DNA from: Phytoactinopolyspora halophila
GTDB taxonomy: Bacteria > Actinomycetota > Actinomycetes > Jiangellales > Jiangellaceae
Assembly (NCBI RefSeq): GCF_003287285.1
Contig: NZ_QMIG01000004.1
Span: 186,001-250,000, forward strand
Direction of reading: 5' to 3'
DNA length: 64,000 bases
The notes under the pieces were generated by a model. The model made no database searches and was not told the DNA's origin. It was given only the letters and a program-made list of their open reading frames with translations. A program made the position numbers and the translations under genes. Below are positions 23,369-55,420 of the stretch, piece after piece. How positions within the stretch are numbered: the first letter of the stretch is position 1; every line of letters begins with the position of its first letter.

Positions 23369-23510
23369 ACCCTCGCGAGGGGCCGGACCCGTACACAAGG
23401 AAGAGCGCTCGTTGGCTGTCCATGCCGAGCAGCGCGCACTCCAGTAAGACGCGAGGACCGGCCCCAGGGGGATGGGCCGGTCCCACGTACGGTGACTCTG
23501 CCCCGCTGTG

Positions 23511-23576
23511 CCTCGTCCCCCGGGCCGCTGTGCTTCGTCCCCCGGGCCGCTGTGCCTCGTCCCCCGGGCCGCTGTG
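23511..23576. repeat. Tandem repeat, three copies of 22 bases
   Basis: Three near-identical 22-base units, each containing CCCCCGGGCCGCTGTG, fill the 294-base spacer between the LD-carboxypeptidase and PucR genes, with a degenerate half unit just before. Each unit carries a CCCGGG palindrome. I see no gene in this spacer. Confidence 0.75.
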
Positions 23577-23625
23577 CCGCGTCGCGGCGCCCCGTGGTCC
23601 GCATGGCCACCTGTCGCGGGCGGGA

Positions 23626-29116: not shown

Positions 29117-30217
29117 TCAGGGAGTTGCCACCTCGACCTCGAAGCCTTCCTCGTTCTCGAAGTAGGCGGCGTAATGGTGCGGACCCCCGGCATACGGGTG
29201 ACGGTCGCTGAACATCAGCCGCCATCCGTAGGTCGGCGCCTCGGAGACAATCCGGTCCACCATCCACCGCTCCGGAACGGCCAGCGCGAGATGGTTGAGC
29301 CCCGGTGCCTTGCGATCATACGGCGCCCACGACATGTCCGGCGACTGCTCGATCACCACGTATGGGCCGCCGCCCGGCGACTGCCACGACCGGCCGGTGT
29401 CCCATACCTGGAACAGCGTCCAGCCCAATCGCTCGAACAGCCATCCGAACGAGCGGGTCGCAGCCTCGATATCGCGCGTCCAGATCTCGACGTGATGCAG
29501 GCCGGTGGACGGCGTGCGGACATCGGACAGCGACGGGTCATCTGCGGGCTCGTACGCGTTCACCGCCGGCTGCTGGTGTGTCCGCTGCGCCGGCGCCGAG
29601 TATCCCGTCTCGAGAGCCCGCAGGGCGGGGTCGAGCTCGTTGACCGCCGAATCGGTCAACGGCTCGTCCATACGTTGTGGCTCGTTGTATCCCGGATACG
29701 TAGGCTGCGGGGATCCAGGGGGGTATCCCGATGGCGCGGCCGGCGGAGCAGGGGCAGCCGGTGGTCCGCCTGGTGGTGGCCCGCCCGCCGGCGGGCCACC
29801 AGCGGGTGGTCCGCCGGCCGGCGGAGCAGCGGGCGGCATCCCGCCTGCTGGATAGCCCATCGGATCGCTGCCGGGCCAACCGTGCTCGGGGCCACGCGGC
29901 ATGTTCTGGGTGTGTTGCGCGGGAGCGGCATACTGATGCTGCTGCGAGGGCTGCGACTTGCGCTCGGCATCGCGACGCTGACGAAGCTCGGCCGCTGCGG
30001 CGTCGAGCCAGTCGTCAACGTCATCCATCGAGTAGCCTTCGCGCATCCGCACGACCTTGAACTCCTCGGCTTCGATCCGCTCGGGCGTGATCCCCCTTCC
30101 CCCCGGGCGGCCGTCGAGCGCTTCGATGACCTGATCGACAAAGTCATCCACGGCGTCGAGGTCGTAGCCCTCGCGCATCCGTACCGTACGAAACTCGGGT
30201 TCGCGACTCACAGCCAC
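29117..30217 (-). CDS. Fusion of two DivIVA-type modules, a Pro/Gly linker and a VOC domain
   Basis: The protein has 366 residues. Near the N-terminus are two copies of a short motif, FRTVRMREGYDLDAVDDF and FKVVRMREGYSMDDVDDW, which match the membrane-binding DivIVA-domain repeat of actinobacteria. A low-complexity linker of Pro, Gly, Ala and Gln (about 90-210) follows. The last 130 residues are a glyoxalase/VOC-type domain (LHHVEIWTRDIEAATRSF, LNHLALAVPERW, HHYAAYFENEEGFEVEV) with candidate metal His and Glu residues. The GTG at 30217 has GAGGAG 12 bases upstream. It lies next to rlmN. The role is unknown: perhaps a polar- or septum-located VOC protein. Confidence 0.75.
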   Translation of the reverse strand: MAVSREPEFRTVRMREGYDLDAVDDFVDQVIEALDGRPGGRGITPERIEAEEFKVVRMREGYSMDDVDDWLDAAAAELRQRRDAERKSQPSQQHQYAAPAQHTQNMPRGPEHGWPGSDPMGYPAGGMPPAAPPAGGPPAGGPPAGGPPPGGPPAAPAPPAAPSGYPPGSPQPTYPGYNEPQRMDEPLTDSAVNELDPALRALETGYSAPAQRTHQQPAVNAYEPADDPSLSDVRTPSTGLHHVEIWTRDIEAATRSFGWLFERLGWTLFQVWDTGRSWQSPGGGPYVVIEQSPDMSWAPYDRKAPGLNHLALAVPERWMVDRIVSEAPTYGWRLMFSDRHPYAGGPHHYAAYFENEEGFEVEVATP

Positions 30218-35171: not shown

Positions 35172-36101
35172 TCAGGCCTGCGATGTCGCAGTCTGCGCGA
35201 GATCGGACTCCGATTGCGCAGCCTCCGGCTGCGCAGCGCCGGACTCGGAGGCCGAATCGGAGGTGGAATCGGTACCGGCCGGCGTCTCATCGCTGGCCTG
35301 GCCCGTGCCCTCCGCCTCGGCATCGGATCCGACCAGTAGTTCCTTCTCCCATTCGGCCAAGGGCTCGTCAGCCGCGACCTCCGCGGTGCCCTCGTCGCCG
35401 CCGCGCTGCCCGTGCCGGGCGATCAACCCGTCCGCAACGGCATCGGCAACCACCCGAGTCAGCAATGTGACCGCGCGGATCGCGTCGTCGTTGCCGGGAA
35501 TGGGGAACTGCACCTCGTCGGGATCGCAGTTGGTATCAAGGATTCCCACGACCGGGATGCCCAGCTTCCGGGCTTCGTCGACGGCCAGGTGTTCCTTCTT
35601 GGTGTCGACGATCCAGATCGCGCTGGGAACCTTGGTCATGTTGCGCACGCCGCCCAGGGTGCGCTCCAGCTTGTCCTTCTCACGCCTGCGCATGAGAAGT
35701 TCCTTCTTGGTCAGCCCGGATGCCGCGACGTCGTCGAAGTCGATCTCTTCAAGCTCCTTGAGCCGCTGCAGCCGCTTGTTGACCGTCTGGAAGTTCGTCA
35801 GCATCCCACCGAGCCACCGCTCGGTGACGTACGGCATGTTGACCCGGGTAGCTTGTTCCCGCACTGCCTCTTGGGCCTGCTTCTTGGTCCCGACGAACAG
35901 CACCGTGCCGCCGTGCGCGACCGTTTCCTTGACGAACTCGTAGGCGCCATCGATGTAGCTCAGCGACTGCTGAAGATCGATGATGTAAATGCCGTTACGT
36001 TCCGTGAAAATGTACCGCTTCATCTTCGGGTTCCAGCGCCGAGTCTGGTGCCCGAAGTGCACTCCGCTTTCGAGGAGCTGCTTCATTGTGACGACGGCCA
36101 T
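35172..36101 (-). CDS. rpsB: 30S ribosomal protein S2
   Basis: This 309-residue protein opens with [20 protein letters not shown] and contains [12 protein letters not shown] and [20 protein letters not shown]. The last 60 residues are an acidic Asp/Glu/Ser/Thr/Ala tail, longer than in E. coli but common in actinobacteria. AGAAGGAGG lies upstream of the ATG at 36101. It begins the rpsB-tsf-pyrH-frr-cdsA-rlmN run. Confidence 0.95.
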
Positions 36102-36287
36102 GGCCGCGCCCGCCTCCTTCTACGCCCACCCACGGGGCGTTTCGTCGTGGTTTCAGCGGTCAGCGGTCTTGCTGCCGCTCCTGGTGTCCTCGGCATAACC
36201 GCCGCCCCGATGGAAACCACCGGGGACCACAGGGGAATGCCGTGTCGAGAACACGCGTAGTCGATCTAGTCATGCCAGATCACCGCC

Positions 36288-36316
36288 AGTGTACGGCACA
36301 ATGGCGCGTCTCTCCA
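36288..36316 (-). promoter_or_regulatory. Candidate rpsB promoter region with motif shared with rplS
   Basis: The 21 bases at 36288-36308 match 18 of 21 bases at 57848-57868 upstream of rplS, in the same orientation to the gene. On the minus strand it contains a possible -10 TACACT, with a weak -35 TGGAGA 17 bases upstream. It is 187 bases from the rpsB start. The promoter role is inferred. Confidence 0.35.
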
Positions 36317-36362
36317 CACCGGCGCGCGTGCTGGCGAGTCAGCACGCGGGCCAGGCATCGCC

Positions 36363-36390
36363 GGCCTGGAGTGGTCGGCCTGGAGTGGTC
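36363..36390. repeat. Tandem repeat, two copies of 14 bases
   Basis: GGCCTGGAGTGGTC is repeated exactly twice just downstream of the OppF-type gene stop, in the 292-base spacer before rpsB. No gene is visible in this spacer. Confidence 0.7.
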
Positions 36391-36393
36391 GGC

Positions 36394-37455
36394 TCAACCT
36401 CGCACGCCATGCAGATGGCACGCAGCCTGGTGCCCCTGCGCTGCATCCGCGTCGCCCGTGTCGCCACCGACAGCGTCGTCGCCACCGAGAGCGTCGTCGC
36501 CGCCGACGGGCTGGAGCACCGGATCGTAGTGCGGACAGGGATCGAAGACCTTCGGACACCGGGTCCGGAACCGGCATCCCGACGGAGGAGCGGCCGGGCT
36601 GGGAATGTCGCCACCGAGCACGATCCGGTCACGGGCGCGTTCCTTGCGAGGTGACGGCGCCGGCACCGCCGACACGAGCGCCTCGGTGTACGGATGTTGC
36701 GGATCGTCGACGACTGACGGTGCCGCTCCGATCTCCACGATCCGGCCCAGGTACATCACCGCAACCCGATCCGCCACCTGCCGTACGGCTGCGAGATCGT
36801 GCGACACGAACAGATACGTCAGGCCGAAATCACGCTGCAATCGCACGAGCAGGTTCATGACCTGCGCCTGCACCGAGACGTCGAGCGAGGCGATCGGCTC
36901 GTCGCAGACCACGAACTCCGGTTCACCCGCGAGCGCGCGGGCGATCCCCACCCGCTGGCGCTGGCCACCGGAGAACTCGTGCGGGTACCGGCCACGGTGA
37001 TCAGGGTCCAGCCCGACAACCTCCATCAACTCACCGATCCGGGCCCGGCGCCGCCTCCGGCCCCGGTGCAGCCCGTGGATGGCCAGCGGTTCACCGATAG
37101 TGTCGCCGACGGTGCGCCGGGGATCCAGCGAGGCGAACGGATCCTGAAAGATCACCGCCATGCGCCGGCGCAACGACCGCAGAGCCGACGCGGACAACGT
37201 GGCGGTGTCCACACCGTCGAACTCGACCGTGCCGGCGCTGGGGTCGATGAGGCGCACGAGCGCCTGACCGAGCGTCGACTTCCCACATCCCGACTCCCCT
37301 ACCAGGCCCAGCGTCTCTCCCCTACGCACGTGCAGGTCAACGCCGTCGACCGCGCGCACGACCTCCGTGACGGAGCGGCGGAAGGGCATCTGCGAGCGCA
37401 TCGGGAAATGCACGTGCAATCCCGACGCACGCACCAGGGGCGGCTCGCCAGCCAT
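36394..37455 (-). CDS. Oligopeptide ABC transporter ATP-binding protein, OppF type (second system)
   Basis: This ATPase has 353 residues with Walker A GESGCGKST, signature FSGGQRQRV and Walker B FVVCDEPIASLD. The C-terminal CRFRTRCPKVFDPC is the oligopeptide-family extension. A Gly/Asp repeat near the end comes from an 18-base repeat. The ATG at 37455 is 4 bases after the preceding stop. It is the last gene of a five-gene importer (42235 to 36394) inserted between the M23 gene and rpsB. Confidence 0.88.
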   Translation of the reverse strand: MAGEPPLVRASGLHVHFPMRSQMPFRRSVTEVVRAVDGVDLHVRRGETLGLVGESGCGKSTLGQALVRLIDPSAGTVEFDGVDTATLSASALRSLRRRMAVIFQDPFASLDPRRTVGDTIGEPLAIHGLHRGRRRRRARIGELMEVVGLDPDHRGRYPHEFSGGQRQRVGIARALAGEPEFVVCDEPIASLDVSVQAQVMNLLVRLQRDFGLTYLFVSHDLAAVRQVADRVAVMYLGRIVEIGAAPSVVDDPQHPYTEALVSAVPAPSPRKERARDRIVLGGDIPSPAAPPSGCRFRTRCPKVFDPCPHYDPVLQPVGGDDALGGDDAVGGDTGDADAAQGHQAACHLHGVRG

Positions 37456-37459
37456 GGCG

Positions 37460-38470
37460 TCACACCCCCTCGGGCGTGTAAAACGTGGCGGCACGGTGAC
37501 CCGGGTCCCCGGCCACGGAAGCCAGCGGTGGCTCCTCGGTCCGGCACCGCACATCGGCGCGCACCGGACAACGCGGATAGAACGCGCATCCCTCCGGCAG
37601 CTCGACCGGATCGGGTGGCAGACCCGGCATGGTGACCAGCAGATCCCGCTCCCGTGCCGGGCGCGGATCGTCGACCACGGGCGTGGCACCGAGGAGCCCC
37701 CGCGTGTACGGGTGAACCGGACGCTCGAACAGCGCGTCCACGCTGCCTTCTTCAACACAACGCCCCGCGTACATGACGAGTACGTGATCGGCGATCCCCG
37801 CCACCACACCCAGATCGTGGGTGATCCAGATGACGCCCGTCGAGTGCTCTTTCTGCAATCGCATCAGCAGGTCGAGAATCTGCGCCTGCACCGTGACGTC
37901 GAGAGCCGTCGTCGCCTCGTCGGCGATCAGCACGCGCGGCTGCCCGGCCAGCGCGATCGCGATCATCACCCGCTGGCGCATCCCCCCGGAAAGCTGGTGC
38001 GGATACGCTTCGAGACGCGACCGCGGATCCGGAATTCCGACCTCCGCCAGCAGCTCCTCCGCCCGCGCCCGGGCCACATCCTTCGGCATCGACGCATGCG
38101 CCCGCAGCGCCTCCACGAGCTGCCGCCCCACCGTCAGCACCGGATTCAACGACGTCGCCGGGTCCTGGAACACCATGCCGACGCCGGCACCCCGTACCGC
38201 ACGCATCTCCTCCTCGTCGCGGCCGATCAGCTCGTATCCATCGAATACCGCGCTACCGCTGATTCGAGCCACGTCGCCTGGCAACAGGCCCAGCAGCGCG
38301 AGCGCCCCGACGCTCTTTCCCGAACCGGACTCCCCGACGATCGCCAGCGTGCGGCCCGGCTCGACGTCGTAGGACAGCCCGTTCACCACCCTCGCCAGCC
38401 CTCGTGGCGTGCGAAACGCGACCCGCAAGTCGCGCACCGACAGGACCGGGCCGCCCTGCTCATCCCTCAC
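37460..38470 (-). CDS. Oligopeptide ABC transporter ATP-binding protein, OppD type (second system)
   Basis: This 336-residue ATPase starts at GTG 38470, overlapping the permease stop as GTGA. Walker A GESGSGKSV, signature LSGGMRQRV and Walker B VLIADEATTALD are intact, with the C-terminal CAFYPRCPVRADVRC element. Its first bases GTGAGGGATGAGCAGGGCGG closely resemble a segment of the 92-base repeat at 39367-39594, which contains GTGAGGGACGAGCGGGGCGG. Confidence 0.88.
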   Translation of the reverse strand: MRDEQGGPVLSVRDLRVAFRTPRGLARVVNGLSYDVEPGRTLAIVGESGSGKSVGALALLGLLPGDVARISGSAVFDGYELIGRDEEEMRAVRGAGVGMVFQDPATSLNPVLTVGRQLVEALRAHASMPKDVARARAEELLAEVGIPDPRSRLEAYPHQLSGGMRQRVMIAIALAGQPRVLIADEATTALDVTVQAQILDLLMRLQKEHSTGVIWITHDLGVVAGIADHVLVMYAGRCVEEGSVDALFERPVHPYTRGLLGATPVVDDPRPARERDLLVTMPGLPPDPVELPEGCAFYPRCPVRADVRCRTEEPPLASVAGDPGHRAATFYTPEGV

Positions 38471-39402
38471 GCGCCACCACCTTTACCCGAGAGCGCCGAC
38501 CTTTGCCGCGGATCCAGCACATCGCGGAGCGCGTCACCCAAGACGTTGAACGCCAAGACCGTGACGAAAATCGCCAGGCCCGGGAACAGGGCCATCCACC
38601 ACGCCTGCTCGATGAAGCCGCGACCTTCGGACAGCATGCGGCCCCACGACGGATCCGGGGGTTGCGTTCCCAGCCCGACGAAACTCAACGCGGCCTCCGA
38701 CAAGATCGCAAAGGCCAAGCTCACCGTCGTCTGAACGATGATCGGAGCCGAGACATTGGGTAACACGTGCCGCGCGAGCACCCGCGTGTTGCCCGCTCCG
38801 CTCGCCCTCGACGCCCGTATGTAGATCTCCTCACGCACGCTCAACACGCTCGCACGCGTCACCCGCGCGAAAATCGGCGTGTATACGATACCGATCGCGA
38901 TCATCGCGTTGTTCTCACCAGGCCCCAAGATGGCAAGGATGGCGATCGCCATCAGCATCGCCGGAAACGCGAACAGCATGTCGGAGAAACGCATCAGCAC
39001 GTCATCCAGCCACCGGCCGAAATAGCCGGCCAGCAGGCCCATGAGCACCCCGGCGACAAGGGAGATCCCCACCGCCACCAGCCCGACGCGCAACGACACC
39101 TCCGCGCCGAAAAGCACCCGGGAGAAGACATCGCGGCCGAACTCGTCCGTGCCGAACCAGTGCTGGCCCGACGGCGCCTCCAACTGGCCCCCCGCGAACT
39201 GCTCGTTGTATCCATACGGAGCGACAGCGGCACCAAACACCGCCACCACCACGAGAGCGAACAAGACCGCGCCAGACACGAGCGCCATCGGATTCCGGCC
39301 GAGAAGCAACAACGTCTCCACCCAGCGCGACCGATGCTTCCCCTCGACCGGCAAAGCATCGAGCGCCTCGTCCCTCACGCGCCAGCTCCGCTCGCTCGTC
39401 AC
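38467..39402 (-). CDS. Oligopeptide ABC transporter permease, DppC type (second system)
   Basis: This 311-residue permease has the WFGTDEFGRDVFSR motif, six helices and the EAA loop around YIRASRASGAGNTRVLARHV. The GTG start at 39402 overlaps the stop of minicistron 2 (GTGA). Its first 36 bases are identical to the tandem repeat units upstream, showing that the 92-base duplication copied the 5' end of this gene. The upstream Shine-Dalgarno is weak (GGTGGGG), so translation probably depends on coupling. Confidence 0.87.
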   Translation of the reverse strand: MTSERSWRVRDEALDALPVEGKHRSRWVETLLLLGRNPMALVSGAVLFALVVVAVFGAAVAPYGYNEQFAGGQLEAPSGQHWFGTDEFGRDVFSRVLFGAEVSLRVGLVAVGISLVAGVLMGLLAGYFGRWLDDVLMRFSDMLFAFPAMLMAIAILAILGPGENNAMIAIGIVYTPIFARVTRASVLSVREEIYIRASRASGAGNTRVLARHVLPNVSAPIIVQTTVSLAFAILSEAALSFVGLGTQPPDPSWGRMLSEGRGFIEQAWWMALFPGLAIFVTVLAFNVLGDALRDVLDPRQRSALSGKGGGA

Positions 39403-39494
39403 TTCGCCGCACCAACCCCACCAGTCACGCTCAGCTCCTCACTCACTCCGCCGCCCCGCTCGTCCCTCACGCGCCAGCTCCGCTCGCTCGTCAC
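39399..39494 (-). CDS. Minicistron 2 of the duplicated junction (31 codons)
   Basis: GTG at 39494 overlaps the stop of minicistron 1 by 4 bases, and its own TGA overlaps the DppC-type GTG at 39402. The predicted peptide starts VTSERSWRVRDERGGG and ends GGVGAAK. An internal GTG with GAGGAG upstream could also initiate. It may be only a translational relay between the two permeases; a function for the peptide is not implied. Confidence 0.5.
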   Translation of the reverse strand: MTSERSWRVRDERGGGVSEELSVTGGVGAAK

Positions 39495-39586
39495 TTCGCC
39501 GCACCAACCCCACCAGTCACGCTCAGCTCCTCACTCACTCCGCCGCCCCGCTCGTCCCTCACGCGCCAGCTCCGCTCGCTCGTCAC
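39491..39586 (-). CDS. Minicistron 1 of the duplicated junction (31 codons)
   Basis: GTG at 39586 overlaps the stop of the DppB-type permease (GTGA), and its TGA overlaps the start of minicistron 2. It encodes the same 31 residues as minicistron 2. Because 92 is not a multiple of 3, the duplicate would break the frame, yet each unit happens to close its own small cistron with a 4-base overlap, keeping an unbroken chain of stop-start couplings. Confidence 0.5.
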   Translation of the reverse strand: MTSERSWRVRDERGGGVSEELSVTGGVGAAK

Positions 39587-40539
39587 TTCGCCGCTCCGAC
39601 ATACGAGATTCGGGGATCAAGCCTCGCGTACAACAAATCGACCAGGAGATTGACAAGCAAGAAGATCACCGCGAATAGCAAGACAGACCCTTGCAGCAAC
39701 GGATAGTCCCGGGACTCGACAGCCTGCAAGGCCATCTGACCCAGCCCTGGCCAGGCGAAGACGATCTCGACGATCACCACGCCCGACAACAGATACGCGA
39801 GCTGCACCCCGCCGACGGTGACCAGCGGAATCAACGCGTTGCGCAACACGTGCCAGCCGAGAACGTCCCGCCGGCGCATGCCCTTCGCCCGCGCGGTACG
39901 GACATGGTCCTGGCCCAGGGCCTCCAAAACCGACGAACGGACGAATCTGGTCAGGATCGAACCGCTGGCCACGCCAGCGGTGACCGCGGGCATCACGAGA
40001 TGGTGCGCCCACCCCACGGGATCGCTGGTCAGCCCCACGTAGCCGCCGGAGGGAAACCACCCCAACGTCCCGGCGAACAGCAGGATGAGCATGATCCCCA
40101 TCCAGAAGTCGGGAATACTCAGACCGGCCTGGCTGCTCGCCGTCGCGAACCAATCGACCGGTGACCGGGGTTTCAGTGCGGCGATAGTTCCCAGAGGTAT
40201 GGCGATGAGCAACGCCACGACGATCGCTGCCGCGGCGAGGGAAACCGTAGCCGGCACCCGCTCCAGGATCATCTCCATGACCGGCCGGCCCGTGCGAAAG
40301 CTCACGCCGAGATCACCGGTGAACGCCGAGCCGATCCAGTCGAGGTACTGGGTGAGCAGCGGCTCGTCCAAGCCAGCTCGCTCGCGCATCGCCTGATAGG
40401 CCGCCTCCGTGGCGCGCGTACCCAGTGCCTGGCGCACCGGATCGCCGGGCACGAGATGCATGATCGCGAAGACCAGGATGCTGACACCGATCAGCACGAC
40501 GGCTGACTGCCACAACCGTCGCAGCACATAACCGGTCAC
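39583..40539 (-). CDS. Oligopeptide ABC transporter permease, DppB type (second system)
   Basis: This 318-residue permease has six helices, the extracytoplasmic VPGDPVRQALGTRATE segment and the EAA loop HVRTARAKGMRRRDVLGWHV. The GTG start at 40539 places helix 1 at residues 9-28. It ends GAAK just before the duplicated junction. It forms the channel with the 38467 permease. Confidence 0.88.
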   Translation of the reverse strand: MTGYVLRRLWQSAVVLIGVSILVFAIMHLVPGDPVRQALGTRATEAAYQAMRERAGLDEPLLTQYLDWIGSAFTGDLGVSFRTGRPVMEMILERVPATVSLAAAAIVVALLIAIPLGTIAALKPRSPVDWFATASSQAGLSIPDFWMGIMLILLFAGTLGWFPSGGYVGLTSDPVGWAHHLVMPAVTAGVASGSILTRFVRSSVLEALGQDHVRTARAKGMRRRDVLGWHVLRNALIPLVTVGGVQLAYLLSGVVIVEIVFAWPGLGQMALQAVESRDYPLLQGSVLLFAVIFLLVNLLVDLLYARLDPRISYVGAAK

Positions 40540-40639
40540 CGATCGCTCTCCCTACGGACGGTGTCCACCTGCCGTGCCGGGTGCCGGTCTCGGGACATCG
40601 ACGCTGCCGACGGGCACCCGGGCGTCGACGCCATCGTGC

Positions 40640-42235
40640 TCACTCGGGCAACGTCACGTTCTCGAACTCGGTTGCACGGTCCGGCCGGACCTCGTAGCCG
40701 TCCAAGCCCGGAACCCACGCCTGGACGACGTCGGGGTTGTACAAGTACAGGTAGCTGACGTCGTCGACGATCATCTCCGCGGCCTGGTCGTACAACTCCT
40801 TGCGAGCATCCTGGTCGGTCTCGCCCGCCGCCTCGTTGAGGAGCTCATCGACGTCGGGATTGCAGTAACCCTGGAAGTTGAGGCCACCGTCGCAGACGTG
40901 CTGTGCATGGTAGAAGCCGAACGGATCGAGGTTGCCGACCCAGCTCCACATGAAGGCGTCGAAATCGCCCTCGCTCTGCCGGTCGAGCCAGGTACTCTCC
41001 GGTTCCTGCTCGATCGTGACCTCGATACCGATGTCCGCCAGCTGCGACTCCAGTGCCTGAGCGATCTGGACACCCTCGGTCTCCTGCACCACCATCACGT
41101 CAAGCTGCTGCCCCTCGTCGACACCCGCCGATTCGAGCAGTGACGCGGCTTCGTCGGGGTTGTGCTCGTAGGGCGCGTATTCGTGGTGCCAGAGATTGTG
41201 TTCGGGAATGGCCGTCTGGTTGATCGTCGCCGCGCCGAACTGGGCGGCCTCGACGATCTGCTCGCGATCGATGCCGTAGGCGATGGCTTGCCGTGCCTCG
41301 ACCTCATCCCAGGGTTCTCGCTCCTGGTTGAGGGCCAGGTACCAGTAGTCGACGCTGGGAGACATGCCGAGCTCGACCTCCTCATCCCCCTGAAGATCCT
41401 CGACCGCCTGCGGCGCGATGTTGTCGGTCCAGTGGATGTCGCCGGCCCGCAGCGACGTCAACGCCGTCGTGGCCTCAGAGATGTAGCGGAACTCCACGGC
41501 GTCGAGTGTGGGTGAGCCATTCCAATGATTCTCGTACGCCGTGATCGTCACCCCGCTGGCCTCGGGTGAACCGAGCTCGAACGGCCCGGTCCCGACGGCC
41601 TCGGTCACGAGGTCGAGGTCCTCGTCGGCACCTTCCGGGATGATCGCCAGACCCTTGTGACTGCCCAGATTGTCCAGGAGGGCCGGCGTCGGCTGGTTCA
41701 GCGTGATCTCTACCGTGTGCTCGGCCACCGCCTCGATATCGTCGACCTCGGAGAACTTGTAGGCGTTGGCCAGCTCATCCTCGATGATCCGGTTGTAGGA
41801 ATAGACGACGTCGTCAGCGGTGAGGTCACTGCCGTCGTGGAACGTGACGTCGTCCCGCAGTTCGAATGTCCAGGTGAGCTCGTCGTCGCTGGTGCTCCAG
41901 TCGCGTGCGAGGCTGGGCTGGTATTCGCCTTCGGCATCTGGTGCCACCAGCGTGTCGTAGACGTTCTCCAGGACCTGAAAGCTCACATGGGCGGTGGTGA
42001 CATGCGGGTCGAACTGGTCGGGCTCACCACCGATCGCCGCGATCAAGGTGCCGCCTTCAGGTGCGTCACCTGCCGTCCCCTCCTCGTCACCATCCACGTC
42101 GACACCCTCGCCCGTGTCGCATGCGGCGAGAGCGAGGGACGCGGCAAGAACCGCGGCACCCCATCGCCAGGCTCGGAACCTGAGTATCGTCGGGAATCGC
42201 CGATTCCGCGGCGTCACCGTCATCACTCTCGTCAT
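40640..42235 (-). CDS. Peptide ABC transporter substrate-binding lipoprotein (second system)
   Basis: The protein has 531 residues. The lipobox LALAAC puts the lipidated cysteine at residue 39, followed by an acidic Gly/Asp/Glu linker, then the family-5 binding domain (GGEPDQFDPHVTTAHVSFQV, LARDWSTSDDELTWTFEL). It is a lipid-anchored receptor, unlike the C-terminally anchored one at 3053. GTG 42241 is an alternative start. It leads the importer operon, divergent from the M23 gene across a 227-base spacer. Confidence 0.88.
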   Translation of the reverse strand: MTRVMTVTPRNRRFPTILRFRAWRWGAAVLAASLALAACDTGEGVDVDGDEEGTAGDAPEGGTLIAAIGGEPDQFDPHVTTAHVSFQVLENVYDTLVAPDAEGEYQPSLARDWSTSDDELTWTFELRDDVTFHDGSDLTADDVVYSYNRIIEDELANAYKFSEVDDIEAVAEHTVEITLNQPTPALLDNLGSHKGLAIIPEGADEDLDLVTEAVGTGPFELGSPEASGVTITAYENHWNGSPTLDAVEFRYISEATTALTSLRAGDIHWTDNIAPQAVEDLQGDEEVELGMSPSVDYWYLALNQEREPWDEVEARQAIAYGIDREQIVEAAQFGAATINQTAIPEHNLWHHEYAPYEHNPDEAASLLESAGVDEGQQLDVMVVQETEGVQIAQALESQLADIGIEVTIEQEPESTWLDRQSEGDFDAFMWSWVGNLDPFGFYHAQHVCDGGLNFQGYCNPDVDELLNEAAGETDQDARKELYDQAAEMIVDDVSYLYLYNPDVVQAWVPGLDGYEVRPDRATEFENVTLPE

Positions 42236-55325: not shown

Positions 55326-55340
55326 GAGCGAGGCAACGTG

Positions 55341-55420
55341 GCCCGGCCACGCCGAACGAGGGATGCCCGGCGGCCCAGCCACGCCGGACGAGGGATGCGC
55401 CGCGGCCCAGCCGCGCCGAA
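55341..55420. repeat. Tandem repeat, 2.5 copies of 32 bases
   Basis: Units starting at 55341, 55373 and 55405 share GCCCAGCCACGCCGGACGAG with small differences. They fill part of the DUF2469-yraN spacer, where no gene is visible. Confidence 0.7.

Follow-up and report, generated by a model that had tools for sequence, protein, structure and literature searches.

In the dppB/dppC operon of Phytoactinopolyspora halophila, a 92-bp tandem repeat is likely to be a 2.5-unit array of a short element, interspersed in the chromosome, which has colonised NTGA start/stop overlaps inside operons. The best reading of the evidence is that the element is mobile in the manner of the mycobacterial interspersed repetitive unit (MIRU), targeting NTGA overlaps and surviving because of its own re-initiation relay, in which minicistrons apparently let ribosomes keep passing from gene to gene. 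It would work like a MIRU, but as far as sequence comparison can tell its membership of the MIRU family by descent is not supported.

The repeat lies in the window, the 64,000-nucleotide stretch of the 5.04-Mb host genome that was analysed (contig NZ_QMIG01000004.1, positions 186,001 to 250,000), within a minus-strand operon encoding, according to Pfam, SBP_bac_5, DppB, DppC and two ABC/oligo_HPY ATPases; the nearest named relatives by transporter are Phytoactinopolyspora, Haloactinopolyspora and Jiangella. Tandem Repeats Finder (TRF) places it at 39367-39594 with a period of 92, 2.5 copies (2.48), 100% matches and a score of 456, values that exclude chance. The first-pass annotation had described a 92-bp tandem duplication in which DppB, two 31-codon frames and DppC are joined by overlaps of exactly 4 bases, and TRF and the ORF coordinates bear this out to the base, with GTGA at all three overlaps (Table 1). 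The two minicistrons are identical, each encoding VTSERSWRVRDERGGGVSEELSVTGGVGAAK and a stop, and the repeat extends over the final four codons of DppB (GAAK) and the initial 12 codons of DppC. That a unit not divisible by 3 should nevertheless preserve coupling is no paradox, since the relay requires a period of 3n-1, the class to which 92 belongs and the only one in which a GTG reads in frame to the TGA of the following copy. The inner links are preceded by GGTG only, not by GGAG. The copy number given here is that of the assembly.

Table 1. Features of the dppB/dppC junction and its surroundings (window coordinates)
Feature	Position	Strand	Basis
DppB/OppB-type permease, upstream gene (BPD_transp_1 + BPD_transp_1_N)	39583..40539	-	translation, Pfam
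Element unit 1, full	39516..39594	-	model R1, 62.1 bits, E 3.6e-18
Element unit 2, full, identical to unit 1	39424..39502	-	model R1, 62.1 bits
Element unit 3, 5' half only; gives DppC start and first 12 codons	39364..39410	-	model R1, 28.7 bits, positions 1-48
Link 1, GTGA: DppB stop / minicistron 1 start	39583..39586	-	
Minicistron 1, 31 codons	39491..39586	-	
Link 2, GTGA: minicistron 1 / minicistron 2	39491..39494	-	
Minicistron 2, 31 codons	39399..39494	-	
Link 3, GTGA: minicistron 2 stop / DppC start	39399..39402	-	
DppC/OppC-type permease, downstream gene (OppC_N, BPD_transp_1)	38467..39402	-	translation, Pfam
DppD-type ATPase (ABC_tran + oligo_HPY), GTGA-coupled to DppC	37460..38470	-	Pfam
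27-bp fragment, 93% like element middle, at dppC/dppD GTGA overlap (38467-38470)	38450..38476	-	
Predicted GGA (GNA) triloop, hairpin apex of unit 1	39555..39557 (unit 2: 39463-39465)	-	inferred structure

The unit is not confined to this junction. A sequence-only model (R1), built from 28 unit sequences (alignment A1), finds 11 units in the host genome. Within the family, the counts are highest in four Phytoactinopolyspora-type genomes (21, 32, 30 and 21 units), and the others have 0 to 8. The element, about 80-100 bp long, is present in about 5-30 copies per genome in Phytoactinopolyspora and relatives, and it is sparser in other actinobacterial families. Beyond the window, the host carries copies on contigs C14 (at the end of recO), C2 (tal/pgi, period 95), C12, C29 and C74. 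At the tal/pgi junction on C2, the 95-bp units encode the minicistron VTSERSGHRDGGAMPAQRVRTEAPTIEQEAAK, and the contig ends inside this array (L003/L181, G000:C2:11278-11462), which indicates that such arrays break short-read assemblies and that drafts may understate their copy numbers. At the recO end (L182, G000:C14, about 29867-29950), GTGA is changed to GCGA and the element is read through in a stop-free frame, so that the C-terminal extension of RecO consists of element sequence; the recO/uppS ATGA overlap is retained. In-frame insertions of the element, with a stop-free sense frame, are also seen inside MurE (L173, G012:C1:700021) and inside another long ORF (L178, G007:C34:419677). Arrays of four to five near-identical units occur at G014:C12:639664-640095 (L274, 94 bp) and G007:C27:14797-15153 (L282, 92 bp). 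Across 394 genomes of the class, R1 also matches families f17, f18 and a few others, and the readable copies there often stand at NTGA relays too; reading of context at class level extended to L310, the last locus being left unclassified. Viral contigs contained no exact match to the element, phages and plasmids gave none by blastn, and no such element is described for Jiangellaceae in the open literature, subscription papers having been outside the search.

The placement of the element with respect to genes was read by codon-position GC in about 90 fetched loci, in which 145 units were located. Among the 72 arrays with a clear coding signal on both sides, 69 have the same orientation as both neighbours, and these comprise 67 gene junctions and the two in-frame insertions within genes (L173, L178). 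At 57 of the 67 junctions the relay of -4 overlaps is unbroken, by direct in-frame fusion to the downstream gene in 31 cases and through 2 to 5 links in 26; a complete relay is missing at the other 10 by the crude rule applied. The genes in these counts were called by GC-frame rather than from annotation, and orthologues and tandem copies among them are not independent. When random indels of 1 or 2 nt were placed in the element as a control, 39-60% of the relays were left intact. The upstream stop lies within NTGA at 62 of the 67 element junctions. In the window, the same crude caller finds this at 5 of 19 close gene pairs. The units are either 3n-1 in length, forming a minicistron, or 3n, forming an N-terminal extension of the downstream protein. 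The antisense frames of the unit are nearly stop-free (stops in 1-2 of 59 units), and the bias towards the sense orientation is therefore not a matter of avoiding stops.

Translational coupling has been described as lost once the gap between start and stop exceeds about 30-40 nt (PMC12548453, section 6), and an inert insert of 92 bp should therefore uncouple DppC. The element would instead hand ribosomes on, either through its minicistron or through a fused start. We propose that it inserts at stop/start overlaps, or spreads into them by recombination. With a 3n-1 unit, a ribosome ending the upstream gene would re-initiate twice, first within the element and then on the downstream gene; with a 3n unit, it would start directly on the fused downstream protein, and coupling would survive in both cases. 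Copies that break the relay would be removed by selection, and tandem copies, like those in the window, would arise later through slippage or unequal recombination. The first-pass annotation had suggested a neutral slippage event tolerated because re-initiation passes along the chain. The tolerance it invoked fits the data, as relays are kept far above the level of the frame-shifted controls; the notion of a one-off local slippage does not hold, the unit being dispersed and orthologous junctions being found without it.

For alignment A1, RNAalifold proposed one long hairpin on the sense strand, in which 94% of the cells pair and 10 of the 18 pairs show changes on both sides. Its covariation score is 0.363, against 0.217 +/- 0.012 in shuffled alignments, which leave the relatedness among units in place, and at most 0.10 in slid controls. 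Among 81 units that had no part in deriving the structure, 92% of the cells pair and double-change cells number 113, where shuffling gives 35 (at most 49 in 300 shuffles). Between the helices, the columns are almost invariably tandem G.A/A.G; the apex reads C-GA-G[GNA]C-GA-G, with a closing pair that switches from G-C to C-G. Minimum free energy folding of single units with ViennaRNA DNA parameters gave values not above shuffled sequences (z +1.0 to +2.6), and the case for a hairpin is for that reason made by covariation and by a stem scorer in which G.A pairs are permitted. With this scorer, the window unit reaches 30.0 against a shuffled maximum of 28.0; 0-1 of 300 shuffles score as well for the window, f17 and f18 units, and 181 of 300 for the J. 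gansuensis-type unit. We regard a long hairpin of short helices, with tandem G.A pairs and a GNA triloop, as well supported but not proven. DNA hairpins are known to contain both tandem G.A pairs and GNA loops. Stable mini-hairpins of the GCGAAGC type have been discussed elsewhere (PMC10527192). The hairpin may be a feature needed for mobility, or it may act in the mRNA; the frequent G-U pairs of the sense-strand form would suit RNA.

This last property is one of the points in favour of a different reading, namely that the element is a domesticated, cis-acting structured mRNA element concerned with stability or processing, spread mainly by recombination and limited by coupling only in its placement. 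The covarying sense-strand hairpin is what such an element would offer, as is the sense orientation of nearly all arrays despite the nearly stop-free antisense frames. We nevertheless consider this reading unlikely: even within one family, orthologous junctions carry the element only sporadically, its copies share no gene function, and a search of Rfam gave no match above the gathering score in the region of the window that contains dppBC (36000-42000).

The preferred reading of a mobile element draws support from the comparison of filled and empty orthologous sites. Between dppB and dppC, a plain ATGA overlap without the element is found in Haloactinopolyspora alba, MAG DX1, P. limicola and J. 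aurantiaca, whereas the site is filled by one 92-bp unit in P. alkaliphila, one 116-bp unit in P. endophytica and two 92-bp units in the window; P. halotolerans has one 99-bp unit (3n), in which the first GTG reads straight into DppC. These orthologues carry 0, 1 or 2 units, in a survey whose search motif was too strict to take in several other Jiangella loci, and no trend with copy number could be assessed. Between tal and pgi, the Jiangella genomes and genome G003 are empty, with a plain GTGA and a distance from stop to motif of 140 nt, or 134 nt in one of them, whereas filled sites are longer by 92, 95, 119 or 47 nt (3n-1) or by 27 nt (3n, in frame); in genome G007, 95 nt are combined with an in-frame extension. 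The chain of -4 overlaps is unbroken at tal-pgi in every parsed genome, and none of the lengths given here belongs to the 3n+1 class. Since the empty sites lack the entire unit, the filled sites gained it and did not merely multiply it.

The same comparison bears on the view that the repeat is a plain minisatellite, in which a local 92 bp was duplicated by slippage, the frame happened to allow re-initiation and nothing was mobile. Two tandem units that are 100% identical, a copy number at dppBC that differs between species, and units that are more alike within one array than between sites are all what slippage would leave behind. The host genome and its relatives, however, carry the unit at numerous unrelated junctions as well as within genes, and the empty sites speak against local duplication as the origin of the unit. 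We therefore hold this view to be improbable and largely refuted; it remains tenable only for the increase from one unit to two in the host genome, behind which slippage or unequal recombination may lie. Least probable, and very unlikely in our estimation, is regulatory tuning, in which the number of relay links would set the ratio of DppB to DppC and would have been selected for that effect. In its favour, some ribosomes could be lost at each extra link, the geometry of stop and start has a strong influence on coupling (reviewed in PMC12548453), and copy number varies between species. Against it, the junctions that carry the element have no function in common (among them tal-pgi, recO-uppS and sugar permeases), and the element is often a fused N-terminal extension without any minicistron.

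Among known systems, the closest in its way of life is the MIRU, reportedly introduced by Supply and colleagues in 1997. MIRUs tend to be regarded as a curiosity of mycobacteria and as a tool for typing. To our knowledge, the way in which they move is unsettled. The MIRU has been described as mobile, as inserting at start codons and as carrying an ORF coupled at -4 nt (PMC12548453), and it is also described in PMC12065434. Like the element, MIRUs are short (40-100 bp) dispersed units, often in tandem and with a variable number per array, which are located at NTGA/DTGA stop/start overlaps of co-directional genes and contain an internal ORF coupled at -4 to its neighbours; unlike them, the element is longer (80-120 bp), is often fused in frame to the downstream gene and has a hairpin supported by covariation. 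MIRU-like copies were recovered with a MIRU motif, which matches almost only one genus (f4/g9), presumed from its 53-bp periods to be Mycobacterium, with relays at most sites. A GNA loop with a variable N is present in 31 of 31 distinct MIRU rows, which hints at a fold shared with the element. These rows vary too little for a covariation test, and in stem scoring 30 of 300 shuffles do as well, so that the MIRU hairpin is indicated by its loop pattern only. No sequence homology between the two was detected, as R1 and the corresponding MIRU model (R2) fail to recognise each other's sites: R2 had no match among the element loci, nor R1 among the MIRU loci.

Other classes of repeats resemble the element in part. 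REP/BIME sequences, which RAYT (Y1) transposases mobilise, are likewise short, dispersed chromosomal units, often clustered and with an imperfect palindrome, but the element sits at translational overlaps and is read as coding. Identity with the REP/RAYT system was rejected, as the Y1 transposase domain (Y1_Tnp, PF01797) is found in 0 of 22 family genomes and was detected in five control genomes. Rickettsia palindromic elements lie in frame within protein genes, as the element does in MurE, in the L178 ORF and at the RecO end, whereas most copies of the element are at gene junctions with a stop/start relay. VNTRs or minisatellites share the tandem, identical units in variable number, but the units of the element are dispersed and were gained at empty sites. 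MITEs are marked by a short target-site duplication and terminal inverted repeats; the palindrome of the element is imperfect and internal. A general target-site duplication was not found: only the dppBC and tal-pgi arrays are flanked by long direct repeats, with an identity of 27-29 of 32 positions, as against 9-23 of 32 at most other sites.

A second family with the lifestyle of the MIRU, unrelated to it by sequence and with a covarying hairpin, would make stop/start overlaps a recurrent niche for mobile DNA, and it gives comparative leverage on the movement of such elements. The junctions described here also provide series, formed in nature, in which one gene pair is joined by 0, 1, 2 or more relay links, and on which the passage of ribosomes along successive overlaps can be measured. 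More tentatively, and with the balance of our judgement still on the side of doubt, one could imagine a broad actinobacterial class of NTGA-targeting single-strand hairpins, made of short Watson-Crick helices, tandem sheared G.A pairs and a GNA triloop, of which MIRUs would be one branch; the hairpin would be the substrate for mobility, and the relay would permit life in operons.

Several minor observations can be added. In some of the class-level copies, a four-codon ORF, GTG AGC GAC CAA TGA, precedes the ATGA of the next gene and forms an ultra-short relay step; at three f17 loci (L299, L300, L307), related elements end in GTGAGCGACCNATGA, the stop of a four-codon ORF (VSD-) overlapping the ATG of the next gene. 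Three genomes of the presumed Mycobacterium (G413, G416, G419) contain 73 to 99 MIRU-type matches each, far above most of the genus as sampled. Elsewhere in the window, TRF reports two other tandem repeats, at 23503-23583 (22 bp, 3.7 copies) and at 55340-55420 (32 bp, 2.5 copies).
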